Assembly (NCBI RefSeq): GCF_000024965.1
Contig: NC_013530.1
Location: 310,001 to 374,000 of the forward strand
Source of the DNA: Xylanimonas cellulosilytica DSM 15894
GTDB lineage: Bacteria > Actinomycetota > Actinomycetes > Actinomycetales > Cellulomonadaceae
DNA length: 64,000 bases
Reading direction: 5' to 3'
Below, piece by piece: positions 24,215 to 64,000 of this stretch. The notes under the pieces were generated by a model. It did no database searches, had not been told where the DNA came from, and saw nothing but the letters and a program-made list of their open reading frames with translations. Numbering within the stretch: position 1 is the first letter of the stretch; each line of letters opens with the position of its first letter. The translations under genes were made by a program, and so were the position numbers.

Positions 24215-24367
24215 GGTGGTTTCGGCAGGCTCAACCACCGGAGACCGCCGCAGCGAGTGGGGTGTCTCGACGGGCTCAGTCACCTGGGTCCGGTGTCGGG
24301 TGGTTTCGACAGGCTCAACCACCGGAGCGGGGTCGGGCGGCGGGTGGTTTCGACGAGCTCAACCACC
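24215..24367. repeat. Cluster of four REP-like palindromes
   Basis: A 25-bp palindromic element (GGTGGTT...AACCACC arms) occurs at 24215-24239, 24299-24323 and 24343-24367, with a degenerate copy at 24261-24284. The centres read TCGGCAGGCTC, TCGACAGGCTC and TCGACGAGCTC. It fills the gap between the HNH and TSUP genes. Similar elements are dispersed in many actinobacterial genomes. Confidence 0.85.
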
Positions 24368-49843: not shown

Positions 49844-50287
49844 TCAGTCGACGTAGGCGATCTCGATGTCGGCGACGTCCTGGTCGGTCAGGTTGACCAC
49901 GATGTTGTCCGGGGTGCGCGTCGTCATCCAGACGAGCTCCTCGGTGCGGCTCAGGTTGCCCTCGATGTGCGGGACGAACGGCGGCACGTAGACGAAGTCG
50001 CCCTCGGCGAGGTAGACGATCTCCTCGTAGCGCTCGCCGAAGCGGATGAAGCCGTGGCCCTTGAACACGTAGCCGCCGGTCTCGGCCTCGCCGTGGTGGT
50101 GCGGGTCCGAGACCTCGCCGGGGCCGGTGTACACCTTGCCGAACCAGAGGTCCGTGACCTCGGTGTTCTCCTTGCTGACGCCGGAGATGCGGCGGGCGTG
50201 CCGGGTCTGCCCGGGGGCCTGGGCGAGGTCGTCGCCGCGCTGGACGCTCAGGTTCTTGAGGGCGGCCTGGGTCGGGGTCTGGGACAT
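49844..50287 (-). CDS. Single-domain cupin protein
   Basis: A 147-residue cupin. Motif 1 is [19 protein letters not shown] and motif 2 [16 protein letters not shown], with His and Glu residues for a metal. It is too small for a classical gentisate 1,2-dioxygenase (about 350 residues, two cupins), so it may be a small dioxygenase, isomerase or metabolite-binding protein. The ATG follows AGGAG. It is the last gene of the leftward ridA-cupin unit beside the aromatic operon, which suggests a role in that pathway. Confidence 0.8.
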
Positions 50288-50330
50288 CGTCGTCTCCTGT
50301 TCGGTGCGGGGTGCTGCTCGGGGATGCGGT

Positions 50331-50370
50331 GCTGCTCAGGTGCTTGCTGCTCAGGTGCTTGCTGTTCAGG
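50331..50370 (-). repeat. 15-bp tandem repeats across the ridA-like stop codon
   Basis: GCTGCTCAGGTGCTT at 50331-50345 and 50346-50360, followed by a partial third copy that contains the stop. Read leftward this gives three TGA codons in the same frame, 15 nt apart. Confidence 0.9.
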
Positions 50371-50797
50371 GGGTGGGCGTCACGAGGCGCTCGTCGGGGA
50401 TGACGGCGACGCCGGCGATCTCGATGAGGGCCTCGGGCTGCCACAGGCGGGTGGTGCCGATGCCGGCCATCGCCGGGTAGACGGGACCGGCCAGCTCCCG
50501 CCAGGCGGCGCCGATCTCGCGGCCGTGTGCCTGGTAGTCGGGGATGTCGGTCAGGTAGATCGTGATCGACACGAGGTCCTCGGGCACGCCGCCGGCGGCG
50601 CGCAGCGTCGTGAGCACGTTGCCGAACGCCTGCCGGAACTGCTCGACGATGCCGCCGGGGACGATCCGCATGTTCGCGTCGAGGGCGGTCTGGCCGCCGA
50701 GGTGGAGCGTGTTGCCGCTCAGCGTGCCGTGGGAGTACCCGCTCGGTGCGGGCAGCGAGGCCGGGTTGACCGGCCGGGGAGTCAGGTCCGTGCTCAT
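50366..50797 (-). CDS. RidA-family (YjgF/UK114) enamine/imine deaminase-like protein
   Basis: A 143-residue trimeric protein. [23 protein letters not shown] and [25 protein letters not shown] follow the family pattern; the catalytic Arg of strict RidA (CR/VR in the last third) appears as TRLWQP, so it may belong to a sister class. In catabolic operons such proteins hydrolyse reactive enamines or imines. A leaderless promoter precedes the ATG. Its divergence from the FAH operon over a shared palindrome links it to that pathway. Confidence 0.85.
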
Positions 50798-50804
50798 GCT
50801 TCGC

Positions 50805-50848
50805 AGCGTAGACACCTATTGACAATCTGGCAACGTTCGTGCGAGAAC
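50805..50848. promoter_or_regulatory. Divergent promoter and operator between ridA-like and FAH operons
   Basis: Leftward: -35 TTGCCA (50828-50833), 17 bp, -10 TACGCT (50805-50810), then seven bases to the ATG. Rightward: TTGACA (50819-50824) as -35; its -10 is unclear. The near-palindrome TTGACA-ATC-TGGCAA (50819-50833) covers both -35 boxes, and GTTC-N6-GAAC (50835-50848) lies next to it. One regulator, perhaps PaaX or a GntR-type protein elsewhere, could control both directions. Confidence 0.6.
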
Positions 50849-50854
50849 TGCAAT

Positions 50855-51655
50855 ATGCGAATCGCGACCGTCACCACCCCGCACGGCACCGCCGCCGCGG
50901 TCCAGGCCGACGCCGGCTGGCGCGCGCTGCCCGCCCCGGACCTCTCGGCCCTGCTGGCCGACGGCGACGCCTGGGAGCCCGGCGACCTCCTGGCGGACGC
51001 GGTACCGACGCTGCCGCTGCCCCGCCCCGGCAAGGTGATCTGCTGCGGCCTGAACTACGGCGACCACATCGCCGAGATGGGCCGCGACCTGCCCACCCAC
51101 CCGACCCTCTTCGCCAAGCACGCCGACACGCTGCTCGCCGACGGGCAGGACATCCGGCTCCCGGCCGGTCTCCAGATCGACTGGGAGGCCGAGCTCGCCG
51201 TCGTCGTCGGGCGCGAGCTGCGGCACGCCGACGAGGACCAGGCGCGTGCGGCGATCGCCGGCTACACCGTCGCCAACGACATCTCGGTGCGCGACTGGCA
51301 GCGGCGCACGCCGCAGTGGTTCCAGGGCAAGGCCTGGGACGCCACCACGCCGCTCGGCCCCGTCGTCGTCACCCCGGACGAGGTCGACCCCGAAGCAGGG
51401 CTCGAGGTGATCTGCCGCGTCAACGGCGTCGAGCACCAGCGGGGCAGCACCAAGACCCTCGTGTTCTCCAGCGCCGCGCTGCTCGCCTACGTCTCCACGT
51501 TCACCGTGCTGCGGCCCGGCGACATCGTGCTCACCGGGACGCCGGGCGGCGTCGGCATGGGCATGGAGCCGCCGGTCTACCTCGCCGACGGTGACGTCGT
51601 CGAGACCGAGATCCCGGGCATCGGCGCCCTCACCAACACCGTCCGCCTCGCATGA
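50855..51655 (+). CDS. Fumarylacetoacetate hydrolase (FAH) family protein
   Basis: A 266-residue metal-dependent hydrolase. [34 protein letters not shown] (metal Glu residues in DWEAE), [14 protein letters not shown] and [12 protein letters not shown] give the full FAH pattern. Members cleave C-C bonds of acylpyruvates or decarboxylate/hydrate ring-cleavage products. Strict start choice: the frame is open far upstream, but the ATG gives a standard N-terminus. It is the first gene of a five-gene coupled operon ending in paaX. Confidence 0.9.
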
Positions 51656-51675
51656 CGCCCCGACAGGAGCCGACG

Positions 51676-52635
51676 ATGCCCACCACAGCGATCCCCACCA
51701 CCGCGCTGCCCGCGCCCACGATGCCCACCTCCGCGACCCTCACCGACGTTCTCACCCTCAAGCCCGTCGACCCCGAGGTGTTCGACGTCGCGTTCACCGC
51801 GACCACCGGGCCCTGCCCGTGGCCCAAGGCCTACGGCGGGGACATGGTCGCCCAGGCCCTGGTCGCCGCGACCCGCACCGTCACGGACGGCAAGGCGATC
51901 CACTCGACCCACGCGTACTTCCTGCGGCCCGTCGACGTCGGGGCCGAGGTCCGCTACGAGGTCGAGGTGCTGCGCGACGGCCGCGGGTACAGCACCCGAC
52001 AGGTGCGCGGCTTCCAGCACGGCAAGCCCGTCTACGTCTGCCTGGCGAACTTCGCCGCCGGCGAGCCCGGCGGCTCCTTCCAGGCGTCCATGCCCGACGA
52101 CGTCCCGGCCCCGGACGAGCTGCCGACGTCGGCGGCCTGCCTGGACGGGCGCAGCGGCGGCACGACGACGGACGCCGCCCGGGCCTACTGGGCGGGCGGG
52201 CGCAGCGTCGACATGCGGCACGTGCCCGGCCCGCTCTACCTCGCCGTCGACGGCGGGCGCGTGCCCACCCAGGCCGTCTGGGTCGCGCCGTACGACGTGC
52301 TGCGGCCCGTCGACGGGCTCACCACCGCGCAGCGCGACGCCGCGGCGCTGGCCTACGTCTGCGACTACACCATCCTCGAGCCCCTCCTGCGGGTGCTCGG
52401 GCACGCGTGGGCCGACGACGGGCTGGTCACGGCCAGCCTCGACCACGCCATGTGGTTCCACCGCCCCGTCGCCATGGACGGGTGGCTGCTCTACGCCCAG
52501 GAGGCGTGGTCGGTGGCGGACGGCCGCGGCAGCGCGACCGGCCACTTCTTCACCGCCGACGGCGCCCTGGTGGCGACCGTCGTCCAGGAAGGCATGATCC
52601 GGGCCACCGCGCCCGCGAAGGGAGACCTGTCATGA
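51676..52635 (+). CDS. Acyl-CoA thioesterase, TesB type (double hotdog)
   Basis: A 319-residue enzyme with two hotdog domains. KAYGGDMVAQALVAATRTV in the first and ASLDHAMWFHRPVAMDGWLLY in the second include the catalytic Asp, and a Gln/Thr region is near residue 250-290. It releases CoA from medium or aromatic acyl-CoAs. I start at ATG 51676 because of a CAGGAG seven bases upstream; an ATG at 51652 overlapping the FAH stop adds eight residues. The end overlaps the next start. Confidence 0.87.
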   Translation: MPTTAIPTTALPAPTMPTSATLTDVLTLKPVDPEVFDVAFTATTGPCPWPKAYGGDMVAQALVAATRTVTDGKAIHSTHAYFLRPVDVGAEVRYEVEVLRDGRGYSTRQVRGFQHGKPVYVCLANFAAGEPGGSFQASMPDDVPAPDELPTSAACLDGRSGGTTTDAARAYWAGGRSVDMRHVPGPLYLAVDGGRVPTQAVWVAPYDVLRPVDGLTTAQRDAAALAYVCDYTILEPLLRVLGHAWADDGLVTASLDHAMWFHRPVAMDGWLLYAQEAWSVADGRGSATGHFFTADGALVATVVQEGMIRATAPAKGDLS

Positions 52636-55004
52636 AGATCGCGATCGTGGGTGGCGGCCCCGGGGGTCTCTACTTCGCCACCCTGATGAAGACGCTCGAC
52701 CCGACGCACGACATCACGCTCTGGGAGCGCAACGCTGCCGACGACACCTTCGGGTTCGGCGTCGTCTTCTCCGACGAGACGCTCGGCAGCATCGACGGGG
52801 CCGACCCGGTGATCCACGAGCGCATGGAGGCGAGCTTCGCTCGGTGGAGCGACATCGACGTCACCTTCGACGGGCAGCCCCTGACCGTCGGCGGGCAGGG
52901 CTTCGCCGCGATGTCCCGCAAGGAGCTGCTGCAGATCCTGCAGCAGCGCGCCCTCGAGCTCGGGGTGACCGTGCACTTCCGCACCCAGGCGCCCGACCTC
53001 GACACCCTGCAGTCGACGCACGACCTCGTGCTGGCCGCCGACGGGCTCCACTCGGCCATCCGCACCAAGTACTCCGACCACTTCCGCCCGTCCCTGGACC
53101 GGCGCGGCAACAAGTACATCTGGCTCGGCACCGACCTCGTGTTCGAGGCGTTCCAGTTCTTCGTCAAGAACACGCCCTGGGGCACGATGCAGGTCCACGG
53201 CTACCCCTACTCGGCCGAGGGGTCGACGTTCATCGTCGAGATGCACGAGGACGTGTGGCGACGCGCCGGGTTCGACGCGACCGAGGGCGAGAGCTTCCCG
53301 CCCGGCGTCTCCGACGAGCACGCCGTCGCACGGATCGCGGAGATCTTCGCCGACGAGCTCCAGGGCCACGCCATCGCGACCAACAACTCCAAGTGGATCA
53401 ACTTCCACACGGTCCGCAACGAGCGCTGGCACCACGAGAACGTCGTGCTGCTGGGCGACGCCGCCCACACCGCCCACTTCTCCATCGGCTCCGGCACCAA
53501 GCTCGCCATGGAGGACGCGCTCGCACTGGCCGCGTGCCTGCACGAGCACCCGCGGCTCGACGAGGCGCTCGCGGCCTACCAGACGGAGCGGAAGCCCGTG
53601 GTCGAGTCGACCCAGCGCGCGGCGCAGGCCTCGCTCGAGTGGTTCGAGAACATCGGCATGTACGCCCACCAGGACCCGTCCGAGTTCGCCTTCAACCTCC
53701 TGACCCGCTCCCGCCGGATCACCTTCGAGAACCTCCACGACCGCGACGCCGCGTTCGCCACCCGGATCGGGTCGGCGTTCGCGCGCCGGCAGGGCGGCGA
53801 CGAGGGCGCCCCGGCGATGTTCCAGCCCGTCCGGGTCGGCGAGCTCGAGCTGAAGAACCGCGTCATGCTCTCGCCGATGGACATGTACTCGGCCACCGAC
53901 GGCATGATCGACGAGTTCCACCTGGTCCACCTCGGGTCGAAGGCGCTCGGCGGTGCCGGCCTGGTGATGACGGAGATGACGTGCGTGTCCCCCGAGGGCC
54001 GGATCACCCCCGGCTGCCCCGGCCTGTGGACCGACGCCCAGCGTGACGCCTGGCGCACCGTGACCGAGTTCGTCCACGCACGCTCCACCGCGAAGATCGG
54101 CGTCCAGCTCGGCCACTCGGGCCGCAAGGGCTCGACCCGGCTCATGTGGGAGGGCATCGACAAGCCGCTCGAGGACGGCAACTGGGAGGTCGTCGGGCCC
54201 TCGGCGCTGCCCTACGGCAGCGGCTGCCACGTGCCGCGCGAGGCGACGCGCGCCGACCTCGACAAGGTCGTCGCCGACTTCGTCGCGGCCGCCCGTCGTG
54301 CGGTCGACGCGGGCTTCGACCTCGTCGAGGTGCATGCCGCGCACGGCTACCTGCTCAGCTCCTTCCTCTCGCCCGTCGCCAACCGGCGTGACGACGAGTA
54401 CGGCGGCAGCCTCGAGAACCGGCTGCGCTTCCCGCTCGAGGTCTTCGCCGCGGTCCGCGCGGCCGTGCCGGCCCGGGTCCCGGTGACGGTCCGCATCTCG
54501 GCCACCGACTGGGTCCCGGACGGGAACACCGCGCAGGACGGCGTCGAGATCGCCCGCGCCTTCGTCGCCGCGGGGGCCGCCGCGATCGACGTCTCCTCGG
54601 GTCAGGTCACCCAGGACGAGCGGCCGGCGTTCGGCCGGTCGTACCAGACCCCGTTCGCCGACAAGATCCGCCACGAGGTGGCCGCCCCCGCCGGTGTGGC
54701 CGTGATCGCCGTCGGGGCCATCTCCTCGTACGACGACGTCAACTCGATCCTGCTGGCCGGCCGGGCCGACATCTGCGCGCTGGGCCGCACCCACCTCTAC
54801 GACCCGAGCTGGACGCTGCATGCGGCCGCCGAGCAGGGGTACGCGGGGGACGCGGCGGCGTGGCCGGTGCAGTGGGCCGCGGGCCGCCGCAAGCCCCCGG
54901 CGTCGCGCACGGACAAGATCCCGCCGCGCCTGCAGCTGCTGCGCGAGGGCGAGACGACGGTGCCCCACCTGCGCTGGCGCGCCGGTGCTACGGTTCCGGC
55001 GTGA
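52632..55004 (+). CDS. Fused FAD monooxygenase/OYE reductase, aryl-CoA hydroxylase-reductase type
   Basis: A 790-residue fusion. Residues 1-380 are a group A flavin hydroxylase: GGGPGGLYFATLMK (FAD), GVVFSDETLGSIDG, and GDAAHTAHFSIGSGTKLAMEDA (GD motif). Residues from about 395 are an old yellow enzyme: FQPVRVGELELKNRVMLSPM, GLVMTEMTCVSPEGR, and a HAAHGYLLSSFLSP segment. This order is that of Azoarcus 2-aminobenzoyl-CoA monooxygenase/reductase and of proteins called bifunctional salicylyl-CoA 5-hydroxylase/oxidoreductase. It would hydroxylate and then reduce the ring of an aryl-CoA. The 4-bp overlaps on both sides place it in the FAH-paaX operon. The exact aryl-CoA is unknown. Confidence 0.88.
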   Translation: MKIAIVGGGPGGLYFATLMKTLDPTHDITLWERNAADDTFGFGVVFSDETLGSIDGADPVIHERMEASFARWSDIDVTFDGQPLTVGGQGFAAMSRKELLQILQQRALELGVTVHFRTQAPDLDTLQSTHDLVLAADGLHSAIRTKYSDHFRPSLDRRGNKYIWLGTDLVFEAFQFFVKNTPWGTMQVHGYPYSAEGSTFIVEMHEDVWRRAGFDATEGESFPPGVSDEHAVARIAEIFADELQGHAIATNNSKWINFHTVRNERWHHENVVLLGDAAHTAHFSIGSGTKLAMEDALALAACLHEHPRLDEALAAYQTERKPVVESTQRAAQASLEWFENIGMYAHQDPSEFAFNLLTRSRRITFENLHDRDAAFATRIGSAFARRQGGDEGAPAMFQPVRVGELELKNRVMLSPMDMYSATDGMIDEFHLVHLGSKALGGAGLVMTEMTCVSPEGRITPGCPGLWTDAQRDAWRTVTEFVHARSTAKIGVQLGHSGRKGSTRLMWEGIDKPLEDGNWEVVGPSALPYGSGCHVPREATRADLDKVVADFVAAARRAVDAGFDLVEVHAAHGYLLSSFLSPVANRRDDEYGGSLENRLRFPLEVFAAVRAAVPARVPVTVRISATDWVPDGNTAQDGVEIARAFVAAGAAAIDVSSGQVTQDERPAFGRSYQTPFADKIRHEVAAPAGVAVIAVGAISSYDDVNSILLAGRADICALGRTHLYDPSWTLHAAAEQGYAGDAAAWPVQWAAGRRKPPASRTDKIPPRLQLLREGETTVPHLRWRAGATVPA

Positions 55005-55504
55005 CCCACGAACCGCTGGCCATCGGTGTCGCTCGCGCCCGGGTGGAGTGGGTCGACACCGATGCCGCGGGCATCTATCACAACAGCACCGTCATCCGGT
55101 TCGTGGAGTCCGCCGAATCCCGCCTCATGGTCGAGCGCGGCCTGCCCGACTACTTCCCCTCCAGCCCGCGCGTCCGGTTCGAAGCCGACTTCCAGGCGCC
55201 GCTCTTCTTCACCCAGGACGTCACGACCCGCGTCCTGCTCACGCGCATCGGCACGTCGTCGATGCACTGGGAGTTCGAGGTGTGGGGCGAGGCGTTCGAC
55301 GGCCGCCCACGGCGGCGCGCGGCCCGCGGCCGGTACGTCACCGTCCACATCGGGGTCGGGAACCGGGCCGGGTACGACGTCGGGAGCGTCCCGTGGCCGG
55401 AATCGTGGGTCGCGGCGCTGACCGGTGAGCCGGCCGCGCCAGCCTCCCCGGCTTCCCCGGCCGATCCGGCCCTCCGCCCGACGCCGGTGGAGTCCATCCC
55501 GTGA
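55001..55504 (+). CDS. Hotdog-fold acyl-CoA thioesterase (4HBT type)
   Basis: A 167-residue single-hotdog protein. EWVDTDAAGIYHNSTVIRFVE holds the catalytic Asp of the DxDAAGIxYH motif of 4-hydroxybenzoyl-CoA thioesterases. The GTG start overlaps the previous stop (GTGA), and the end overlaps paaX. The last 25 residues are a low-complexity APASPASPADP tail. It is probably a proofreading or pathway thioesterase for aromatic CoA esters. Confidence 0.85.
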   Translation: MTHEPLAIGVARARVEWVDTDAAGIYHNSTVIRFVESAESRLMVERGLPDYFPSSPRVRFEADFQAPLFFTQDVTTRVLLTRIGTSSMHWEFEVWGEAFDGRPRRRAARGRYVTVHIGVGNRAGYDVGSVPWPESWVAALTGEPAAPASPASPADPALRPTPVESIP

Positions 55505-56409
55505 CCGCCGCCGCCACCGAGCCCTCCGGCACGGGAGTCGGCAACGCACAGGACACCGGCAGCGCGGACACCGGTACACAGGACACCGGTGCTCAGGCGA
55601 CCCGTCGCTCCCGGACCACCGTGGTGACGTTCCTCGGCGCCGTCGTCCGCCCGCTCGGCGGCTGGACCCCGATCGCGGGCGCCGTCGAGCTGCTCTCGCA
55701 GTGCGGCCTCGACGACCCGGGCGTGCGGACCGCGATCCACCGGCTCAAGCGCAAGGGCTGGCTCGCCTCGCAGACGCGCGACGGCGTCCGCGGCTATGCC
55801 CTGACCGAGACCGCGACAGCGACGCTGGCCGCCGGGGACGAGGTCATCTGGCACGCGCGCACGCCCCCGGCGCTCGCGGACGGCTGGTGCATCGTGAACT
55901 TCAGCGTGCCGGAGTCGAAGCGGGCGCTGCGTCACCAGCTCCGGGCGCACCTCGCGGCGCTCGGCTTCGGCAACATCGGCACGGCCGTGTGGATCGCCCC
56001 CGCCCGGATGCGTCCCGCCGCGGCGCGAGCCGTCGCCGAGCTCGGGCTCGAGCCCTTCACGACGATCTTCACGGGCGACTACCACGGCCCTCAGGATCTG
56101 ACGACCCTGGCCTACGACAGCTGGGACCTGGCCGCGATCGACCAGGGCTACCGCGGCTTCGTCGACGCGTACGGAGACCTCGCGAGCCGCATCGAGGAGG
56201 CGGCGCCGTCGGGCCGCGAGGCGTTCACGCTCCATCTGCAGATGATCGACGCGTGGCGCCGGCTGCCGTTCCGCGACCCCGGGCTGCCCCGCGAGGTGCT
56301 GGCGGCCGACTGGCCGGGACCGTCAGCGGCCCGGCTGTTCGAGCGGATGGTCGCGGTGCTGGAGGCTCCGGCGCTCGCGCACGCGGCGGGGTACTGGCCG
56401 AAGGCCTGA
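55501..56409 (+). CDS. PaaX-family transcriptional regulator
   Basis: A 302-residue GntR-like winged-helix repressor with the PaaX C-terminal domain. The HTH region VVTFLGAVVRPLGGWTPIAGAVELL, VRTAIHRLKRKGWLASQ and the later segment LGFGNIGTAVWIAPARM are typical. PaaX proteins bind DNA until an aryl-CoA such as phenylacetyl-CoA releases them, which suits a pathway working through aryl-CoA. The first 35 residues hold a QDTGSADTGTQDTGAQ repeat encoded by near-identical DNA copies. It closes the operon by a GTGA overlap. Confidence 0.87.
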   Translation: MTAAATEPSGTGVGNAQDTGSADTGTQDTGAQATRRSRTTVVTFLGAVVRPLGGWTPIAGAVELLSQCGLDDPGVRTAIHRLKRKGWLASQTRDGVRGYALTETATATLAAGDEVIWHARTPPALADGWCIVNFSVPESKRALRHQLRAHLAALGFGNIGTAVWIAPARMRPAAARAVAELGLEPFTTIFTGDYHGPQDLTTLAYDSWDLAAIDQGYRGFVDAYGDLASRIEEAAPSGREAFTLHLQMIDAWRRLPFRDPGLPREVLAADWPGPSAARLFERMVAVLEAPALAHAAGYWPKA

Positions 56410-56423
56410 GCCCGGACGCGGCT

Positions 56424-56458
56424 GACGGCGGGCGGCCCGAGTGGGCCCGCCCGCCGTC
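56424..56458 (+). terminator. Terminator of the FAH-paaX operon
   Basis: A 15-bp stem, GACGGCGGGCGGCCC with GGGCCCGCCCGCCGTC and one bulged C, around a 4-nt loop, 15 nt after the paaX stop. The convergent LLM monooxygenase gene ends 41 bp further on. Confidence 0.8.
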
Positions 56459-56479
56459 GTCCTCGCCGATGCGCCGCCG

Positions 56480-56513
56480 GATCAGCCGGGGTCCTCGATC
56501 AGCCGAGGTCCTC
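56480..56513 (-). repeat. 17-bp tandem duplication across the LLM stop codon
   Basis: 56480-56496 and 56497-56513 are 17-mers differing at one base (GATCAGCCG[G/A]GGTCCTC). The gene's TGA lies in the second; the first provides a TGA in another frame. Confidence 0.9.
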
Positions 56514-57602
56514 GGGGCGCAGGCCCTTCTTCACCAGGCGCGGCATGACCTCCTGGGCGAAGTACTCCAGCTCGCCCACGTAGTCGACGAACGCCATGGT
56601 GATGCCGCCGAAGCCGGCCTTGGCGAACCGCTCGATCTCGTCGGCGACGTCGTCGGGCGAACCGATGAGCGGGCAGGTGCCGTGCCCGGCCGCGAACCGG
56701 CTGCGGAAGTTCTGCAGCAGGTCCTTGCTGAACGACTGCGCGTGCAGGCCCTGCAGCTTCATGAGGTTGTCGACGGCGTCCCAGTCGGCGTTCTCCTCGG
56801 CGTAGTAGTGCAGGTACTCCTCCGCCTCCTTGCGGGTCGGGCGGCACACGACGTGCGTCGGCGTGAGCACGCCCGCCTTGCGGCCCAGGGCGGCCGAGTT
56901 GGCCTCGAGCTCCTTGACGACGCCCGCGCCGTCCTCGGGGCCGCCGACGATCGTGAAGACGAAGTCGGCGTTGCGTGCGGCGTACGCCTTGCCCTGCACG
57001 GACGAGCCCGCGTTGAGGATCGGCAGGCGGCGGGCCGCAGGCTTCGGCACCGACTCGATGCGCTCGAGGTTCCAGAACCGGCCCGTGAGGTCGTAGCGGC
57101 CGTCGCGCGACCACAGGGTGGTCAGGACGTCGATCCACTCCTGGGCCAGCTCGTAGCGCGAGTCGTGGTCCTGCGGCAGATCGACGCCCATGGCGACGTA
57201 CTCGGGCTGGTTCCAGCCGGCGACGACGTTGACGCCGACGCGCCCCGGCGCCATCTGGTCGATGGTGGCGAGCTGCTTGGCGGTGACCGCGGGGTGGTTG
57301 AAGGCCGTGTGGACCGTCGCGAAGGCGGTCAGCCGCTCGGTGTGGGCGAGGATCGCCGTCGCCCACGGGACGGGTTCGAGGACGCCCTCGTGGAAGTTGG
57401 TCTCGCCGCCGTAGCCGATCCAGCGGGCGATGGGGAGCATGAAGTCGATGCCCGTCTCGTCCGCGAGCTTCGCGAGGCGGAGGTTGTCCTCCCACGACGC
57501 CGACCACCGCTCGGGGATCGTGGTGACGGCGAGGCCGCCGGAACAGTTGGACGAGAACAGGCCGAGCCGGAAGTGGTTCGACTCGAGGACGGGGATGCTC
57601 AT
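56499..57602 (-). CDS. Flavin-dependent LLM-class monooxygenase, RutA/SfnG-like
   Basis: A 367-residue TIM-barrel oxygenase using FMNH2 supplied by a partner reductase. The segment MLPIARWIGYGGETNFHEGVLEP, RVGVNVVAGWNQPEYVAMG and LNAGSSVQGKAYAARNADFVFT are close in pattern to RutA, which oxidatively opens the uracil ring, and to dialkylsulfone monooxygenases. The ATG follows a strong AGGAGGAAC. The flavin reductase gene is immediately upstream on the same strand. In this setting a nitrogen heterocycle is a sensible substrate; this is inference. Confidence 0.88.
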   Translation of the reverse strand: MSIPVLESNHFRLGLFSSNCSGGLAVTTIPERWSASWEDNLRLAKLADETGIDFMLPIARWIGYGGETNFHEGVLEPVPWATAILAHTERLTAFATVHTAFNHPAVTAKQLATIDQMAPGRVGVNVVAGWNQPEYVAMGVDLPQDHDSRYELAQEWIDVLTTLWSRDGRYDLTGRFWNLERIESVPKPAARRLPILNAGSSVQGKAYAARNADFVFTIVGGPEDGAGVVKELEANSAALGRKAGVLTPTHVVCRPTRKEAEEYLHYYAEENADWDAVDNLMKLQGLHAQSFSKDLLQNFRSRFAAGHGTCPLIGSPDDVADEIERFAKAGFGGITMAFVDYVGELEYFAQEVMPRLVKKGLRPEDLG

Positions 57603-57634
57603 CGTGGTTCCTCCTGAGGGTCGCAAGGGTGGGG

Positions 57635-57676
57635 TCAGCGTTGGAGCGTCAGCGTTGGAGCGTCAGCGTTGGAGCG
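57635..57676 (-). repeat. Three 14-bp tandem copies across the flavin reductase stop codon
   Basis: TCAGCGTTGGAGCG at 57635-57648, 57649-57662 and 57663-57676, all identical. Read leftward, the gene's TGA is in the first copy met, and each further copy places a TGA in the next frame, so all three frames are closed. Confidence 0.95.
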
Positions 57677-58139
57677 TCATGGGGACGTGGTCGGCGGCCG
57701 TCATGGTGACCACCTCGCCGATGAGGTAGACGTGGTCGCCGACGTCGAACCTGTTGGCGACGCGGCACTCGAGCCGCAACGGGACCTCGTGCGTGAGCAG
57801 CGGGATGCCGTCGAGTCCGGGGGCCGTCTCGAGGCCGTCGAACCGGTCGGTGCCCGACGTCGCGAAGCGCGAGATCAGGTCCGTCTGGTGGCCCGCCATC
57901 ACGTGCACCGCGTACCCGGAGGTCGTGATCCACTCGTCGAACCGGCTCGACTTCCGGTCGATGCACCAGCCGACGAGGGCGGGTTCGAGCGAGGCGGCGT
58001 GGAAGCTGTTGACGGTCTTGCCCAGGGGACGGGCGGTGCCGTTGGCGGTGATGATCGCGACGCCGGTGGGCCACCGCGCGAGCTGGCCGCGAAGCGACGA
58101 GGGCGTCACCTCGAGTGTGTTGGGGGTCACACAAGTCAT
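57663..58139 (-). CDS. Flavin reductase, partner of the LLM monooxygenase
   Basis: A 158-residue split-barrel flavin reductase. LARWPTGVAIITA, LGKTVNSFHAASLEPALVGWCI and ECRVANRFDVGDHVYLIGEV match the HpaC/RutF-type family that supplies reduced FMN. The start at ATG 58139 gives a normal N-terminus although no Shine-Dalgarno is visible. It precedes the LLM gene by 60 bp, forming a two-component oxygenase unit controlled from the divergent AraC region. Confidence 0.87.
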   Translation of the reverse strand: MTCVTPNTLEVTPSSLRGQLARWPTGVAIITANGTARPLGKTVNSFHAASLEPALVGWCIDRKSSRFDEWITTSGYAVHVMAGHQTDLISRFATSGTDRFDGLETAPGLDGIPLLTHEVPLRLECRVANRFDVGDHVYLIGEVVTMTAADHVPMTLQR

Positions 58140-58171
58140 GGGATGATGCTGCGGCCGGGGTGCGGCACGGG

Positions 58172-58218
58172 CTATCCACCTGAGGCGCGTGACTATCCAT
58201 CCCACGCTGACATATCAT
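58172..58218. promoter_or_regulatory. AraC half-sites and promoter in the divergent gap
   Basis: CTATCCAC (58172-58179) and CTATCCAT (58193-58200) are direct repeats with a 21-bp period, two helical turns, the usual layout of an AraC-family binding site. A rightward -10 TATCAT (58213-58218) follows. A related half-site lies before the cyclase gene. Confidence 0.55.
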
Positions 58219-58268
58219 CACCGTGACGATCGTTGCGTTGTTGGTAGATGCGAGCAGGGAGCTGCGCC

Positions 58269-59237
58269 ATGACCCGAGTGACGACACCGCTGGCCTCGCA
58301 CGGGGTCCTGCGCACCACCGACGTGGACGACGCCCGCAGCTCCGTCGCCGCGTCGCTGGCGCCCCACCGGCTGACCCCGCTGCGTGACGCCGGCGCGTTC
58401 GAGGCGCTCCACAACGTCGCGGTGCTCGACCGGCTGAGCCTGCACTACATCGACTACGGCACCGAGGTGGAGGTCACCACCGAGCGCCTCGGGTTCCACC
58501 TCGTGCAGATCCCGCTCGGCGGCCTGAGCACGATCCAGGCCGGCACCAGCACCCTGGCCGCCACCCCGCGCAGCGCCGCCGTCACCGCGTCCGGCGAGGT
58601 GCTGCGCATGCGGTACTCCGCGGGCAACCCGCGGCTGATGCTGTGCATCGCGCCCGACCTGCTGCGCGAGCGGCTGGAGGTCGCGGCCGAGGTCGGCGTC
58701 GTGGTGACGATCCGGGGCGGGGCCACGGTCGACATCACCGCAGGTGCCGGCCGGAGCTGGCGTGGCCTGGTGGACGTCGTCCTGGCCGACCTGGAGCACG
58801 AGGGCGGGCTCGGCCGCTCACCCCTGGCCGCGACGACGCTCCAGCTCGCCGTCGTCGACGGCCTGATCGCGTCGCTCGCCGAGCCCTGGACGGATCCGGG
58901 CGACCACTCGACCCCCGAGCGGGTCATCCGGCGCGCCGCACGCCTCATCGAGGAGCACTGCGCGGAGCCCTTGGGCACCCCCGACATCGCCGAGGCGGTC
59001 GGCATCTCGGTCCGCGCGCTGCAGGCGGGGTTCAAGGCGCACCTGAGCACGACGCCGATGGCGTACATGCGCCACGCGCGCCTGCGGCGGGTGCGCGGGT
59101 CGCTCACGGACGGCAGCGCGCACTCGGTCGCCGAGGCGGCGAGCAGGTGGGGCGTCACCCACCTCGGCCGCTTCTCCGCCGACTACCGCGCCGCCTTCGG
59201 CGAGTTCCCGAGCGAGACGTTCCGGCGCGCGCGCTGA
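58269..59237 (+). CDS. AraC-family transcriptional regulator
   Basis: A 322-residue regulator with an N-terminal cupin-like AraC-binding domain (FHLVQIPLGGLSTIQAG) and a C-terminal double HTH (GTPDIAEAVGISVRALQAGF; AEAASRWGVTHLGRFSADYRAAFGEFPSETFRR). AGGGAG seven bases upstream fixes the ATG at 58269 over an in-frame ATG at 58248. It sits between the flavin-oxygenase unit and the cyclase-Ior operon, and shared GGATAG half-sites in both gaps suggest it activates both. Confidence 0.9.
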   Translation: MTRVTTPLASHGVLRTTDVDDARSSVAASLAPHRLTPLRDAGAFEALHNVAVLDRLSLHYIDYGTEVEVTTERLGFHLVQIPLGGLSTIQAGTSTLAATPRSAAVTASGEVLRMRYSAGNPRLMLCIAPDLLRERLEVAAEVGVVVTIRGGATVDITAGAGRSWRGLVDVVLADLEHEGGLGRSPLAATTLQLAVVDGLIASLAEPWTDPGDHSTPERVIRRAARLIEEHCAEPLGTPDIAEAVGISVRALQAGFKAHLSTTPMAYMRHARLRRVRGSLTDGSAHSVAEAASRWGVTHLGRFSADYRAAFGEFPSETFRRAR

Positions 59238-59297
59238 TCCCTGGCGGACGTGAGGTCCGTCACGTGATCGGCGCATTCCGGCCGACGCGAGCGCAAA

Positions 59298-59361
59298 GCG
59301 GATAGAGGCGCCCGGCCGCCGCGGCCTACGTTCCTGACTCCGGCGTGTGATCACGCTCACG
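59298..59361 (+). promoter_or_regulatory. Promoter of the cyclase-Ior operon with AraC-like half-site and CRP-like site
   Basis: GCGGATAG (59298-59305) is the reverse complement of the CTATCC half-sites near the araC gene and lies at the -35 position of a -10 TACGTT (59327-59332), as for AraC-activated promoters lacking a good -35. TGTGA-N6-TCACG (59346-59361) downstream matches the CRP consensus at 9 of 10 positions and could mediate carbon repression. Confidence 0.5.
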
Positions 59362-59380
59362 TCCTGAGAAAGGTGCGCCC

Positions 59381-60151
59381 ATGCCTGCCATCGATGCGCT
59401 GCTGACTGCCCTCACCACCGGTGAGGTCGAGCTGGTCGACCTCACCGCCCCGCTCACCCCCGAGACCCCGATCCTGCAGCTCCCCGCCCCGTTCGCGAAC
59501 ACCATCCCGATGTCCCTCGAGGTCGTCAGCGACTTCGACGACGCGGGCCCGGCGTGGGGCTGGAACAACATCCACACCGGCGAGCACACCGGCACCCACC
59601 TCGACGCGCCCGTCCACTGGGCCACCGGGCGGCAGGGCTACACGGTCGACGCCATCCCGCCGTCGCGACTGATCGGCCCCGCCGTCGTGCTCGACCTCAC
59701 CGCCGAGGTCGCGGAGAACCCCGACTTCGTCCTCGAGCCGGAGCACTTCGAGAAGCACGTCGCCGAGCACGGCCCGCTGCCCGAGGGTGCCTGGCTCGTG
59801 TTCCGCACCGGGTGGAGCGCCTTCAACAAGGACGCCGCGGCCTTCGCCAACGCCGACGAGCACGGCCCGCACACGCCGGGCGTCTCCCCGGAGGGCGCGC
59901 AGTGGCTCGCCGCCTCCGCGATCACGGGCTTCGCGGTCGAGACCGTCGGCATCGACGCGGGGCAGGCAGGCGGCATGGAGCCGCCGTTCCCCGCCCACCA
60001 CTTCCTGCTCGGCGCCAACAAGTTCGGCCTCACGCAGCTCCAGAACGTCGACCGGCTGCCCGTGACCGGCGCCGTCATCGTCGCGTCGCCGCTGCCCATC
60101 GTCGGCGGCACGGGATCGCCGGCGCGCGTGCTGGCGTTCGTCCCCGCCTGA
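59381..60151 (+). CDS. Cyclase-family metal hydrolase, isatin-hydrolase/KynB-like
   Basis: A 256-residue hydrolase of the cyclase/kynurenine-formamidase family. The signature HTGEHTGTHLDAPVHWATG supplies the manganese or zinc ligands (HxxTHxDxPxH), and FAVETVGIDAGQ near residue 186 is also conserved. Isatin hydrolase, which opens isatin to isatinate, and kynurenine formamidase belong here. The ATG follows GAAAGGTG. It is the first gene of the operon that continues into the indolepyruvate-type oxidoreductase. Which lactam or amide it opens is not proven. Confidence 0.85.
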   Translation: MPAIDALLTALTTGEVELVDLTAPLTPETPILQLPAPFANTIPMSLEVVSDFDDAGPAWGWNNIHTGEHTGTHLDAPVHWATGRQGYTVDAIPPSRLIGPAVVLDLTAEVAENPDFVLEPEHFEKHVAEHGPLPEGAWLVFRTGWSAFNKDAAAFANADEHGPHTPGVSPEGAQWLAASAITGFAVETVGIDAGQAGGMEPPFPAHHFLLGANKFGLTQLQNVDRLPVTGAVIVASPLPIVGGTGSPARVLAFVPA

Positions 60152-60172
60152 GCCGCCTGAGCCGCCTGAGCC
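60146..60172 (+). repeat. Three 9-bp tandem copies across the cyclase stop codon
   Basis: GCCTGAGCC at 60146-60154, 60155-60163 and 60164-60172. The TGA of the gene is in the first copy; the others give two more TGA codons in the same frame, 9 nt apart. Confidence 0.95.
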
Positions 60173-60218
60173 GCCGGTTCGCCCCTGCCCGCCACGACCA
60201 GCAAAGGAAGTAGACCCG

Positions 60219-62393
60219 ATGGCCGAACGTTCGTTCGCGCACGAGGTGCGCAAGCTCCGCACGGGAGCGGGAGACACGCTCTCGGGGGAGGGCATCCTCG
60301 CGGTGACCAAGGCCCTGCTGCAGTCCGGCGTCGCGTACGTCGGCGGGTACCAGGGCGCCCCCATCTCCCACCTGATGGACGTGCTCGGGGACGCGCACGA
60401 GATCCTCGAGGAGCTCGGGGTCTACTTCGAGAACAGCGCGTCGGAGGCGACGGCGGCCGCGATGCTGGCGGCGTCGGTGAACTACCCGCTGCGCGGGGCC
60501 GTCACCTTCAAGTCGACCGTCGGCACCAACGTCGCCTCCGACGCCCTCGCGAACCTCTCCAGCGGCGGCGTGCGGGGCGGGGCTCTCGTCATCGTCGGTG
60601 AGGACTACGGCGAGGGCTCCAGCATCATGCAGGAGCGCTCGCACGCGTTCGCCATGAAGTCGCAGATGTGGCTGCTCGACCCGCGGCCCAACATCGAGGC
60701 GATCGTCAACGCCGTCGAGGCCGGCTTCGAGCTCTCCGAGGCGAGCAGCACCCCGGTGATGCTGCAGCTGCGGCTGCGCTCGTGCCACCTGTACGGGAGC
60801 TTCACGGCGAAGGACAACGTCCGGCCGCCGATGACGGTCAAGGACGCCGTCGAGAACCCCTCCCGGCAGCTCGACCGCATCGTGCTGCCGCCCGCGAGCT
60901 TCCTGCACGAGAAGGAGAAGATCGAGGACCGCTGGCCCGCCGCCGTCGAGTACATCACCAGCCACGGGCTCAACGAGGTGCTCGGAGCGGGCACGTCCGA
61001 CGTCGGGATCATCGTCCAGGGTGGCGTCTACAACACCCTCAACCGGGCCATGGAGCTGCTCGGCGTCTCGGACGCCTACGGCAACACCCAGGTGCCGACG
61101 TACGTCATGAACGTCACCTACCCGGTGGTGGACGCCGAGATCCTCGACTTCGTCGCCGACAAGCGGGCGGTGCTGCTGCTCGAGGAGGGGCAGCCCGACT
61201 ACATCGAGCAGAACCTCAACGCGATCCTGCGCCGCGCCGGTTCCGACGTCGCGCTGCACGGCAAGGACCTGCTGCCGGTCGCCGGCGAGTACACCGCCAC
61301 CGTCGTGACCCAGGCCCTGCACGCCTTCCTCAGCAAGTACCTGCCCGGGACGGTGGCCGAACGCCCGGCCCTGCTGCTGCCGCACAGCGACCCCGGCAGC
61401 CCGTTCGCCCCGCGCGTCGAGGCGAGCGTCGTCCGCACGCGCCCGCCGGGCCTGTGCACCGGCTGTCCCGAGCGGCCCATCTTCTCGGCGCTCAAGCTTG
61501 CGGAGAAGGAGACCGGCAAGAAGCACCACGTCAGCGCCGACATCGGCTGCCACCTCTTCGCGATCAACGAGCCGTTCAACCTCGGGGCCACGACGATGGG
61601 CTACGGCCTCGGCTCGGCCGGTGCGGCAGCCCTCAACTCCAAGGACGCCGACCGGCGCACCGTCGCCGTCATGGGCGACGGCGGGTTCTGGCACAACGGC
61701 CTGACCAGCGGCGTCGGCAACGCCGTCTTCAACCAGAGCGACCAGCTCCTGCTCGTCGTCGACAACGCCTACAGCGCCGCGACCGGCGGGCAGGACGTGC
61801 TCTCCTCCCGGGCCGACAGCGCGCTGCGCTCCACCAAGCACCCGATCGAGAAGGCCGTCCGGGGCATCGGGGTGACCTGGGCGCGGACCGTCACGAACAC
61901 GTACAAGATCGGCGAGCTCAAGGATCTCTTCGTCAAGGCGCTGACCACCAAGGAGCCCGGCCCCAAGGTCATCGTCGCCCAGAGCGAGTGCCAGCTGAAC
62001 AAGCAGCGGCGGGAGAAGCCGCAACGAGCAAAGGCGATCAAGGAGGGCAAGCGCGTCGTCAAGGAACGGTTCGGCGTCGACGCCGACACCTGCACGGGAG
62101 ACCACGCCTGCATCCGCGTCTCGGGCTGCCCGTCCCTGTCGATCAAGGCCAACCCGGACCCCATGCGCACCGACCCGGTGGCCACGGTGCTCGACTCCTG
62201 CGTGGGCTGCGGCGTCTGCGGTGCCAACGCCCATGCGGCGTCGCTGTGCCCGTCGTTCTACCGCAGCGACCTGGTCTTCAACCCGACCTGGCGTGACCGG
62301 ACGCTGGCCTGGCTGCGTGCGCGCTGGATCGGCGCGCTGTCCCTGGGCGTGGAGCGCCGCGCCGACCGTTTCGAACCTGCCGAGGTGAACTGA
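60219..62393 (+). CDS. Indolepyruvate-type 2-oxoacid:ferredoxin oxidoreductase, alpha subunit
   Basis: A 724-residue thiamine-diphosphate enzyme. The N-terminal pyruvate-oxidoreductase domain (GYQGAPISHLMDVLGDA, ENSASEATAAAML) is followed by the ThDP domain (GDGGFWHNGLTSGVGNAVFN, with GDG...N) and two iron-sulfur sites at the C-terminus. The first site reads C-x2-D-x2-C-x5-CP (CTGDHACIRVSGCP), with Asp at one cluster position as in Pyrococcus ferredoxin; the second, CVGCGVC...LCP, has four cysteines. Such enzymes turn aryl-2-oxoacids and CoA into aryl-acyl-CoA plus CO2. Within an oxygenase cluster this is notable. The stop overlaps the beta start (TGATG). Confidence 0.9.
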   Translation: MAERSFAHEVRKLRTGAGDTLSGEGILAVTKALLQSGVAYVGGYQGAPISHLMDVLGDAHEILEELGVYFENSASEATAAAMLAASVNYPLRGAVTFKSTVGTNVASDALANLSSGGVRGGALVIVGEDYGEGSSIMQERSHAFAMKSQMWLLDPRPNIEAIVNAVEAGFELSEASSTPVMLQLRLRSCHLYGSFTAKDNVRPPMTVKDAVENPSRQLDRIVLPPASFLHEKEKIEDRWPAAVEYITSHGLNEVLGAGTSDVGIIVQGGVYNTLNRAMELLGVSDAYGNTQVPTYVMNVTYPVVDAEILDFVADKRAVLLLEEGQPDYIEQNLNAILRRAGSDVALHGKDLLPVAGEYTATVVTQALHAFLSKYLPGTVAERPALLLPHSDPGSPFAPRVEASVVRTRPPGLCTGCPERPIFSALKLAEKETGKKHHVSADIGCHLFAINEPFNLGATTMGYGLGSAGAAALNSKDADRRTVAVMGDGGFWHNGLTSGVGNAVFNQSDQLLLVVDNAYSAATGGQDVLSSRADSALRSTKHPIEKAVRGIGVTWARTVTNTYKIGELKDLFVKALTTKEPGPKVIVAQSECQLNKQRREKPQRAKAIKEGKRVVKERFGVDADTCTGDHACIRVSGCPSLSIKANPDPMRTDPVATVLDSCVGCGVCGANAHAASLCPSFYRSDLVFNPTWRDRTLAWLRARWIGALSLGVERRADRFEPAEVN

Positions 62394-64000
62394 TGAGCAG
62401 CTGGAGCTCGGGCCGCCGGCCCATCACGATCGCGATCCTCGCCATGGGTGGCGAGGGCGGCGGCGTCCTCGCCGACTGGATCGTCGCCGTCGGCGAGAAC
62501 GCGGGGTATCACTCGCAGAACACCTCGGTCGCCGGCGTCGCCCAGCGCACCGGGGCCACCGTCTACTACGTCGAGCTGTACCCGGGCGGCCGCTCCCAGG
62601 GCGACGACGTGCGTCGCGAGCCGGTGCTGAGCCTCTTCCCGACGCCGGGCGAGGTCGACATCGTCATCGCGTCGGAGCTGATGGAGGCCGGGCGGGCGAT
62701 CCAGCGGGGCTTCTCGACGCCGGACCGCACCACCCTCATCGCCTCGACCAACCGGGTCTACTCGATGGACGAGAAGCTCGCCCTGGGCGACGGGCGCGTC
62801 GACAGCAACACGCTGCTCGAGGCCGCGCACGCCGGCGCCAAGCACTTCATCGGTGCCGACTTCATGGAGCTGGCCCTCGCGGCCCGCAGCGTCATCAGCG
62901 CCTCGCTGTTCGGTGCGCTCGCCGGGTCGGGCGCGCTGCCGTTCGACCGCACCGGCTTCGAGGACGCGATCCGCGCCAGCGGCAAGGGCGTCGACGCCTC
63001 GCTCGCCGCCTTCGCGGCCGGCTACGACGCCGCGCAACGCCCGGCGCCGCTCCCGCTCCCCGCGGCGCCCACCCCGGCGAGCGGCGGGCCCGTGGCCGTG
63101 ACCATCGGCCTCAGCCGCCCCGTCGACCCCGCCGAGGAGGCCGCCACCGCGGCGGAGAAGCGCCGCGAGGAGCAGGCCGTCCGCGACCCCGGCGCGCTTG
63201 TCGGAGCCGCGCTGCAGCACGCCGCCGCCCGCGTCACCGCGGACTTCCCCGCGCCGGCACGCTCGATGCTGCTGCACGGCGTCGTGCGCACCGCCGTCTA
63301 CCAGGACACCCGCTACACCGACGCCTACCTCGACCGCGTGGCCCGGTTCGCGGCCGTGGAACGGCCGGACGGCCCGGCCCGGCTGACCACCGAGGCCGCC
63401 CGCCACATCGCCCTGTGGATGTGCTACCAGGACACCATCCAGGTCGCGCAGCAGAAGATCCGCCGCCGCCGTCTGGACGGGGTCCGCACCGAGGCCAAGG
63501 CGGCCCCCGGCCAGCTGCTGAACGTCCGCGAGTACCTGCACCCGCAGGTCGAGGAGATCGCAGACACCCTGCCCACCGCGCTCGGACGCTGGGTCGCCGG
63601 GTCGGCCTGGTTCGGCAAGGCGGTCGGCAGGCTCACGCGCAACGGCATGATCGTCAACACCACGGGCATCATCGGCTTCACGATGCTGTGGGCGATGGCC
63701 ATGTTCCGCCCGCTGCGGCCACGGTCCCTGCGCTTCGGGCGCGAGCAGGCGGCCATCGACGCCTGGCTCGACCAGGCGCTCGCGGCGGCCGCGATCGACT
63801 ACGACCTCGCCTGCGAGATCGTCGAGTGCCAGCGCGTGCTCAAGGGGTACGGCGCCACGCACCAGCACGGCACGGAGAGCTTCGCGATCCTCCTGGCGGA
63901 GGCTGCCGCGCTCGCGGGCCGGCCCGACGCCGCCGCGACGCTCGTGCGGCTGCGCGACGCCGCCCTCGCGGACGAGGACGGCAGCGCGCTGCAGCAGGCG
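62393..64000 (+). CDS. Indolepyruvate-type oxidoreductase, beta subunit (partial, runs off the window)
   Basis: At least 536 residues with no stop before the window ends. The N-terminal gamma-type domain (ILAMGGEGGGVLADWIVAVGENAGYHSQNTSVAGVAQRTGATVYY) binds the partner, and the long C-terminal part matches the DUF6537 extension of large aerobic-type IorB proteins (HPQVEEIADTLPTALGRW). The ATG overlaps the alpha stop. With the alpha subunit it forms the 2-oxoacid oxidoreductase. A proline/alanine-rich linker lies near residues 215-235. Confidence 0.88.
   Translation, partial: MSSWSSGRRPITIAILAMGGEGGGVLADWIVAVGENAGYHSQNTSVAGVAQRTGATVYYVELYPGGRSQGDDVRREPVLSLFPTPGEVDIVIASELMEAGRAIQRGFSTPDRTTLIASTNRVYSMDEKLALGDGRVDSNTLLEAAHAGAKHFIGADFMELALAARSVISASLFGALAGSGALPFDRTGFEDAIRASGKGVDASLAAFAAGYDAAQRPAPLPLPAAPTPASGGPVAVTIGLSRPVDPAEEAATAAEKRREEQAVRDPGALVGAALQHAAARVTADFPAPARSMLLHGVVRTAVYQDTRYTDAYLDRVARFAAVERPDGPARLTTEAARHIALWMCYQDTIQVAQQKIRRRRLDGVRTEAKAAPGQLLNVREYLHPQVEEIADTLPTALGRWVAGSAWFGKAVGRLTRNGMIVNTTGIIGFTMLWAMAMFRPLRPRSLRFGREQAAIDAWLDQALAAAAIDYDLACEIVECQRVLKGYGATHQHGTESFAILLAEAAALAGRPDAAATLVRLRDAALADEDGSALQQA

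Follow-up and report, generated by a model that had tools for sequence, protein, structure and literature searches.

A gene cluster of Xylanimonas cellulosilytica that probably leads from isatinate to anthraniloyl-CoA and bypasses free anthranilate

By what route would anthraniloyl-coenzyme A (CoA) arise in a gene cluster that encodes a putative enzyme to consume it and no CoA ligase? The question is raised by a locus of Xylanimonas cellulosilytica DSM 15894, 13 genes at positions 49844-64054 of a stretch of 64,000 nucleotides (the window; G000:C1:310001-374000, from a genome of 3.83 Mb that is 99.99% complete), in which an isatin-hydrolase-type cyclase and both subunits of an IorAB-type 2-oxoacid oxidoreductase stand beside a fusion of a flavin adenine dinucleotide (FAD) monooxygenase with an old yellow enzyme (OYE). 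Judged from sequence, the locus quite probably encodes the aerobic catabolism of an indole-type compound, be it indole, indole acetate or another indolic, by a route that would bypass free anthranilate, with IorAB converting isatinate to anthraniloyl-CoA. IorAB would most likely be an isatinate oxidoreductase of the CoA-acylating kind, with anthraniloyl-CoA as its direct product, because the fusion co-occurs with it across genomes, because the ligase is rarer where IorA is present, and because a thiamine diphosphate (ThDP) enzyme replaces it in clusters that keep the ligase. The enzyme kinds involved are known; their connection, and this exchange of enzymes, are the surprising part. A sequence-only reading had proposed the same order of events (lactam to aryl-glyoxylate to anthraniloyl-CoA by IorAB, with no ligase, and then the fusion), and genome comparison lends it support.

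IorA relatives are widespread in named genomes (at least 591 confirmed among 596 pattern matches), and the locus comparisons cover the best 80 of these, most of them proteobacterial; for at least 66% of the 80 the identity was 63-89%, and iad genes accompany many of them. Fifty of the best 80 loci, chosen mostly for long contigs and for isolates over metagenome-assembled genomes, supplied 50 IorA-carrying genomes, and the fusion is encoded in 49 of them, at full length in 48. Its background frequency is 12-19% (37 of 296 actinobacteria, 56 of 299 proteobacteria and 20 of 150 Burkholderiales), each draw containing one IorA-positive centre genome. With the centre genomes removed, the fusion is found in 8/8 IorA-positive vs 36/295 background actinobacteria (p 1e-7) and in 41/42 vs 55/298 proteobacteria (p 5e-25), p-values which assume independent genomes, which genomes are not. 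Among the 51 of the best 80 loci that are flanked by 8 kb or more on each side, IorB is present in 51, the cyclase in 38 and the fusion in 12; since the fusion thus lies within 10 kb of IorA in only 12 of 51, the link between the two goes beyond physical hitch-hiking.

What the cyclase delivers to IorAB can be approached through loci that lack the latter. The cyclase occurs in 5 of the 35 IorA-negative fusion loci (L160, L172, L173, L175 and L176; L denotes loci and G genomes), and in all five a ThDP decarboxylase-like enzyme directly adjoins it and the ligase is retained. This enzyme, of the acetolactate synthase/benzoylformate decarboxylase kind and below every NCBIfam cut-off, would yield 2-aminobenzaldehyde or anthranilate; it lies at 12628-14325 in L160, and also stands beside the cyclase in place of IorAB in L227 and L228; in Deinococcus psychrotolerans the block consists of fusion, enoyl-CoA hydratase, acyl-CoA dehydrogenase, ligase, cyclase, ThDP enzyme and RidA. 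The 63 cyclase copies in 174 loci divide into 51 with IorA, 7 with the ThDP enzyme, none with both and 5 with neither, the last in genomes that have IorA elsewhere; most of the 51 were fetched because of IorA, and 2 of the 7 because of the ThDP enzyme. A plasmid collection gives a like picture: 40 of 57 cyclase records also carry IorA, 5 the ThDP enzyme, none both and 12 neither, and 10 of 50 IorA records are without the cyclase, in a tally (57, 50 and 8 records) compared by hand and containing many near-identical Sulfitobacter and Roseibium/Labrenzia records. Two unrelated 2-oxoacid-type enzymes thus alternate next to the cyclase. The simplest explanation is that the cyclase releases a 2-oxoacid, a description that isatinate fits, and the exchange provides an independent genetic handle on the isatinate claim. 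The ligase stays where the replacement of IorAB is of the non-CoA kind; the one step of IorAB would correspond to the ThDP decarboxylase-like enzyme plus the ATP-using anthranilate-CoA ligase of related clusters. That IorAB, and with it IadAB, represents a new activity joining isatin hydrolysis to the anthraniloyl-CoA fusion pathway and saving the ligase, with the ThDP enzyme and ligase as a parallel solution, is in our judgement likely.

The ligase was counted as present at 200 bits or more to the ligase of plasmid pAL1 of Arthrobacter sp. Rue61a and no more than 9 kb from the fusion. It accompanies the fusion in 28 of 52 IorA-positive vs 32 of 35 IorA-negative loci (p 1.5e-4). The former include the genome of the window itself and four from the controls that turned out to carry IorA, and leave out G699 (no fusion), G691 (OYE half only) and G731 (fusion at the contig start); the latter remain from 39 control loci, the best 19 non-self fusion places and 20 high-ranking ones on long contigs and hence not a random sample, after reassignment of those four, and include L193, counted with a ligase although identity is only 35%. 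Removal of ligase-less loci with short flanks leaves 28 of 47 vs 32 of 34 (p 6e-4), and when fusions are clustered at 80% identity and each cluster votes once, ties being scored as ligase present, the figures are 12 of 28 vs 18 of 20 (p 0.001); with clusters at 75% identity and short flanks dropped, the difference weakens to p 0.0097. An ortholog of the proven Arthrobacter anthranilate-CoA ligase was not found in the genome of X. cellulosilytica, where the best matches reach 33% and 34% identity, the latter being the acetate-CoA ligase AcsA. The sequence-only reading had named a salicylate or anthranilate ligase just past position 64000 as what would speak against it; the ligase encoded there is AcsA itself (966 bits vs a cut-off of 725), and not one for aromatic acids. 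Its statement that the cluster holds no CoA ligase was borne out, the gene set being that of pAL1 minus the ligase in a genome without a ligase ortholog.

The genes of the locus are the following (bit scores are given with the cut-off of the model).

49844..50287, minus strand: monocupin of 147 amino acids (Pfam Cupin_2, 32 bits; metal ligands conserved)
50366..50797, minus strand: RidA-family protein (PF01042, E 4e-20; TIGR00004, 45 bits, cut-off 106)
50855..51655, plus strand: FAH-family C-C hydrolase (PF01557, E 3e-70; 58% identity to the FAH protein of pAL1)
51652..52635, plus strand: TesB-type acyl-CoA thioesterase (TIGR00189, 180 bits, cut-off 293; 54% identity to pAL1)
52632..55004, plus strand: FAD monooxygenase/OYE fusion of the 2-aminobenzoyl-CoA monooxygenase/reductase type (NF006101, 1224.6 bits, cut-off 1078)
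55001..55504, plus strand: hotdog-fold thioesterase (4HBT_2, 30.5 bits, cut-off 25.5, with a query that began 7 residues upstream)
55501..56409, plus strand: PaaX-family repressor (TIGR02277, 150 bits, cut-off 265)
56499..57626, minus strand: RutA/SfnG-like flavin-dependent LLM monooxygenase (TIGR04021, 198 bits, and TIGR03612, 165 bits, both below cut-off)
57663..58205, minus strand: flavin reductase (PF01613, E 3e-29)
58248..59237, plus strand: AraC-family regulator, nearest curated model AndR (NF041686, 142.7 bits, cut-off 350)
59381..60151, plus strand: isatin-hydrolase-type cyclase (E 2e-75 to PDB 5nmp and 7e-75 to 4j0n)
60219..62393, plus strand: IorA-type 2-oxoacid oxidoreductase large subunit with ThDP and Fe-S sites (PF02775, E 1e-16; TIGR03336, 275 bits, cut-off 651)
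62393..64054, plus strand: IorB-type subunit, POR plus DUF6537 (NF006179, 719 bits, cut-off 348)

Family scans and PDB matches placed all enzymes of the sequence-only reading where it had put them, and its start of the cluster at 49844 stands; its end at 64000 does not, as IorB runs 54 bases beyond the end of the window, and the monocupin at 49844-50287 had gone unnamed. The neighbourhood search it had suggested was carried out: the grouping of cyclase, IorAB and fusion recurs in several actinobacteria. Nocardioides acrostichi (L025) has the full set in the same order except for the position of the cupin, and the order is largely kept in Nocardioides CER19 (L024), where a ligase is added, and in Pimelobacter simplex (L026), which is without the RutA-like pair; on account of this recurrence the set is not a chance grouping.

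In the proposed route, the RutA/SfnG-like oxygenase and the flavin reductase would form an isatin-type lactam, which the cyclase would hydrolyze to isatinate, a 2-oxoacid, as its active-site residues and likeness to isatin hydrolases suggest. IorAB would then, with ThDP, Fe-S clusters and CoA, oxidatively decarboxylate isatinate to anthraniloyl-CoA, the key claim, to which the genome comparison points. By homology to the Azoarcus enzyme, the fusion would turn anthraniloyl-CoA into 2-amino-5-oxocyclohex-1-ene-1-carbonyl-CoA, the conversion described for Azoarcus in passages of PMC4539516. RidA would hydrolyze the enamine, and the FAH hydrolase, cupin and thioesterases may bring about ring opening and release of the acid.

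The cyclase is 47-49% identical to the crystallised isatin hydrolases LaIHA, LaIHB and RsIHA. It resembles them in fold family, in the metal motif HxG[T/A]HxDxPxH (HTGTHLDAPVH), and in the aromatic pocket WxW/FxW with the catalytic Asp/His (WGW, IDAGQ and FPAH), and differs from them by a GLTQ motif, which it has in common with L024, L025, L026, L029, L073 and L160, the Tsukamurella protein having GLTS. As the published isatin hydrolase signature is thereby missed, it is here called isatin-hydrolase-type and not a member of the family. A gene 243/254 identical to LaIHA sits in an iad-type cluster of Roseibium aggregatum. A CrtO/phytoene-desaturase-like flavoprotein is encoded near the cyclase in L015 (18905-20506), with homologs in L026, L028, L032, L073, L140, L160, L204, L205 and L206, and is a candidate for a dioxindole-to-isatin oxidase.

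IorAB has the ThDP, Fe-S and POR features of the oxoacid:ferredoxin oxidoreductase superfamily (TPP_enzyme_C and POR by Pfam, Fer4_10 below its gathering score), and in IorA the GDG motif and cysteines C625, C631, C637, C661, C664, C667 and C677 are invariant in 7 sequences. IorA is distant from the indolepyruvate:ferredoxin oxidoreductase equivalog TIGR03336, its best NCBIfam model, at 275.1 bits and a cut-off of 650.9. The phenylglyoxylate:acceptor oxidoreductase of Azoarcus, multi-subunit and anaerobic, converts an aryl-glyoxylate to an aryl-CoA; the step proposed for IorAB is likened to it by chemistry. At E <= 1e-60, samples of 297 genomes of the order and 396 of the phylum each contained IorA in a single genome, its own, and the nearest relatives among the best 80 are those of Nocardioides (88-89%) and Pimelobacter (88%); because the other 296 sampled genomes of the order do not have it and its closest kin are in these genera, the cluster looks horizontally acquired.

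The left half of the locus is closely matched on pAL1 (ARUE_113p00220/00230), where the gene order is PaaX, RidA; FAH, cupin, TesB, AMP-ligase, fusion, PaaX and hotdog thioesterase. RidA, FAH, monocupin, TesB, fusion, PaaX and hotdog thioesterase are common to both; pAL1 has the anthranilate-CoA ligase and, in the examined stretch, no cyclase or IorAB, the window being the opposite in each respect. The fusion is full length (NF006101 matches positions 1-764 of 768, and both Pfam domains are found) and 72.0% identical to that of pAL1, and the hotdog thioesterase gene overlaps its stop codon with a GTG start. RidA, likely an enamine/imine hydrolase by sequence, is 72-73% identical to its counterparts in Tsukamurella and on pAL1. 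The monocupin has homologs in 11 related clusters (47-71% identity) and is conserved in actinobacterial anthraniloyl-CoA clusters; its sole PDB sequence match, to gentisate dioxygenase, is weak (E 0.03). Passages of PMC3534580 report that E. coli extracts with the pAL1 ligase gene formed anthraniloyl-CoA; that anthranilate-grown Rue61a contained anthraniloyl-CoA, a presumed hydroxyanthraniloyl-CoA and a C7H8O4-CoA; and that a plasmid-free mutant kept growth on anthranilate, which the authors credit to chromosomal paralogs. Similar gene sets lie near the Pseudomonas quinolone signal (PQS) dioxygenase gene in Rhodococcus erythropolis BG43 and adjoin kynureninase in Arthrobacter ERGS1, the two enzymes being the expected sources of anthranilate there. 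A different set, a gentisate dioxygenase-like bicupin (330 bits vs a cut-off of 442) with FAH and a nitrilase-like hydrolase, in some cases joined by a racemase-fold enzyme, is found near the fusion and/or IorAB in L017 (18825-25700), L044, L063, L068, L070, L141, L178 and L030, and is a candidate gentisate-like anthranilate branch, which would run through 5-hydroxyanthranilate, maleamylpyruvate, maleamate and maleate.

Upstream of the cyclase the modules vary, and it is on cyclase and IorAB that they converge. The window and its close relatives have the RutA/SfnG-like oxygenase (retained in L024, L025, L027, L030 and L032), of which the flavin reductase is likely the partner; proteobacterial iad loci act on auxin; and a StyA-type monooxygenase is encoded in L140 (Leucobacter), L073 (Embleya), L204-L206, Alloyangia and Azospirillum, in most of these loci with a flavin reductase, a short-chain dehydrogenase/reductase and the CrtO-like flavoprotein near the cyclase. 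For the Leucobacter protein the PDB match is 7z4x (E 4e-151), an Acinetobacter indole monooxygenase. A StyA-type indole monooxygenase gave no match in the window's genome, an empty answer that shows little for want of a positive control. As to regulation, AndR is the regulator of anthranilate dioxygenase, and the likeness of the AraC regulator to it was counted in favour of the isatinate route. In related loci a palindrome near TGACGATCGTCA between RidA and FAH is a possible PaaX operator, and its 12-mer has 76 matches with up to 3 mismatches in the window vs 36 expected. In a matrix scan of the window the intergenic position 58224 is equalled by other positions, and the 25 best do not include the RidA-FAH site; a shared operator was dropped as evidence of co-regulation.

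How does this route relate to known ones? The iad locus of Variovorax, Achromobacter and Bradyrhizobium shares with the window an isatin-hydrolase-type cyclase and, by COG, relatives of IorAB (IadA/IadB), and differs in that the literature, in the passages seen, describes free anthranilate as its end product. The Rieske gene of iad loci lies within the fetched stretch in 26 of the best 80 loci; in the window, queries for the Rieske oxygenase IadDE, the ligase IadF and the thiolase IadG gave no match, and it is therefore a relative that shares cyclase and IorAB, not an iad locus. IadA and IadB, encoded in the auxin-induced iad operon, serve as markers of iad loci, and an IadR operator precedes iadA (passages of PMC9613470); no function for them is stated in the passages considered of PMC9613470, PMC10374108, PMC11630574 and PMC12633357. 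The iadA and iadB mentioned in parts of PMC8383072 belong to a cluster of another order with iac-gene homologs and may be different genes. The iif indole cluster of Acinetobacter, Burkholderia and Providencia is alike in its cyclase-family protein, flavin reductase and AraC regulator, and differs in its StyA-type indole monooxygenase and in its reported end, free anthranilate, as far as the passages describing it go. The anaerobic auxin pathway (iaa) of Aromatoleum has the same thioester end, 2-aminobenzoyl-CoA, and is set apart by its description in parts of PMC9613470 as anaerobic and made up of other genes; auxin degradation to this thioester is therefore not new in itself, an aerobic isatinate route would be.

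Searches of the open-access literature of PubMed Central brought up no paper that proposes a step from isatinate to anthraniloyl-CoA. A 2018 review (PMC6221969, in part) lists as open points whether indole degradation truly passes through isatin, what roles isatin hydrolase genes have, and which genes handle anthranilate next. Conversion of isatinate and CoA to anthraniloyl-CoA by IorAB would bear on these points and on the function of IadA/IadB; if true, a role would be assigned to iadAB in the many plant bacteria that degrade auxin with these genes, and indole and auxin degraders would have a way to avoid free anthranilate. Anthranilate is a precursor of tryptophan.

Several observations weigh against the isatinate route. 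The ligase is still retained beside the fusion in 28 of the 52 IorA-positive loci, and Tsukamurella, Nocardioides CER19 and Nocardia arthritidis carry both IorAB and the ligase. Of 23 IorA-positive genomes without an adjacent ligase, 16 hold a homolog of 47-62% identity elsewhere, part of which may be benzoate-CoA ligases; one more has only a 35% homolog and six have none at E <= 1e-60, so that genomes without a close homolog number eight, the window's own included. In G694 and G730 the homolog lies 12-14 kb from the fusion, just outside the 9-kb frame. The cyclase has GLTQ where passages of PMC6117287 give GLQC or GLAS as the isatin hydrolase signature. Further, passages of PMC12633357 report that anthranilate is restored in Variovorax by the iadC-K2 region, whose name implies that iadAB are not part of it, and free anthranilate is therefore reachable without IadAB in that organism. 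A point in favour of the route comes from Alloyangia pacifica, where a single stretch encodes indole monooxygenase and the fusion together with RidA, FAH, cupin, cyclase and IorAB, and where the gene table of that stretch, incomplete by design, has no ligase.

The cyclase might act like IifA and form free anthranilate directly from dioxindole (3-hydroxyindolin-2-one); activation for the fusion would then fall to an unrecognised CoA ligase, and IorAB would have another function. In partial accounts, IifA/DhoA, described as a cofactor-independent oxygenase, forms anthranilate from 3-hydroxyindolin-2-one in iif clusters, its Providencia counterpart GS-A is a PF04199 cyclase, and Variovorax iadI acts downstream of C8H7NO2. 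We consider this unlikely: the genome has no anthranilate-CoA ligase ortholog, and in nearly all loci examined one or other of the two 2-oxoacid-type ThDP enzymes goes with the cyclase, IorA also being on 40 of the 57 plasmid records. Quite improbable, too, is that IorAB is an ordinary indolepyruvate/phenylpyruvate oxidoreductase forming arylacetyl-CoA and merely adjoining an anthraniloyl-CoA cluster. Public records do annotate IorAB as indolepyruvate oxidoreductase subunits, and a PaaX-family regulator adjoins. Indolepyruvate decarboxylase is also a ThDP enzyme, so that the enzyme exchange alone would be compatible with such a role. Against it stand the TIGR03336 score (275 bits vs 651), the linkage of IorA to the cyclase in 38 of 51 full-flank loci and to the fusion in 49 of 50 genomes, and the presence of IorAB in clusters with indole monooxygenase.

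The chemistry could also be that of oxygen analogues, a lactone giving 2-hydroxyphenylglyoxylate, IorAB salicyloyl-CoA, and the fusion acting as salicylyl-CoA 5-hydroxylase. NF006101 bears the name salicylyl-CoA 5-hydroxylase/oxidoreductase, and two thioesterases with an FAH hydrolase are compatible with a gentisate route; yet the fusion is 72% identical to the pAL1 protein from an anthranilate cluster with the same gene set, RidA fits an enamine, the single-domain cupin of 147 amino acids matches gentisate dioxygenase only weakly, and sister clusters hold indole monooxygenase, which makes this version very unlikely. There is equally little to be said for two separate pathways side by side, a ligase-less anthraniloyl-CoA remnant next to a cyclase-IorAB operon that has nothing to do with it: the two halves do form separate transcription units and a shared operator could not be shown, while the same pairing recurs in several actinobacteria and the genes co-occur genome-wide in two phyla.

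The surroundings of the cluster may be described briefly. The window has a G+C content of 72%. On the 5' side lies a polyphosphate-kinase-like gene and on the 3' side a GNAT-like gene, both judged by eye, followed by acsA and a separate OYE gene. Three copies of the tandem repeat GCGTTGGAGCGTCA are found at 57640-57680, before the junction of oxygenase and reductase, and a repeat with the unit TGAGCCGCC lies between cyclase and IorA (60150-60176). A dispersed short repeat, GTTTCGACAGGCTCAACCA, occurs on both strands at 24303 and, in continued window numbering, downstream at 64581, 64625, 76867 and 77495.

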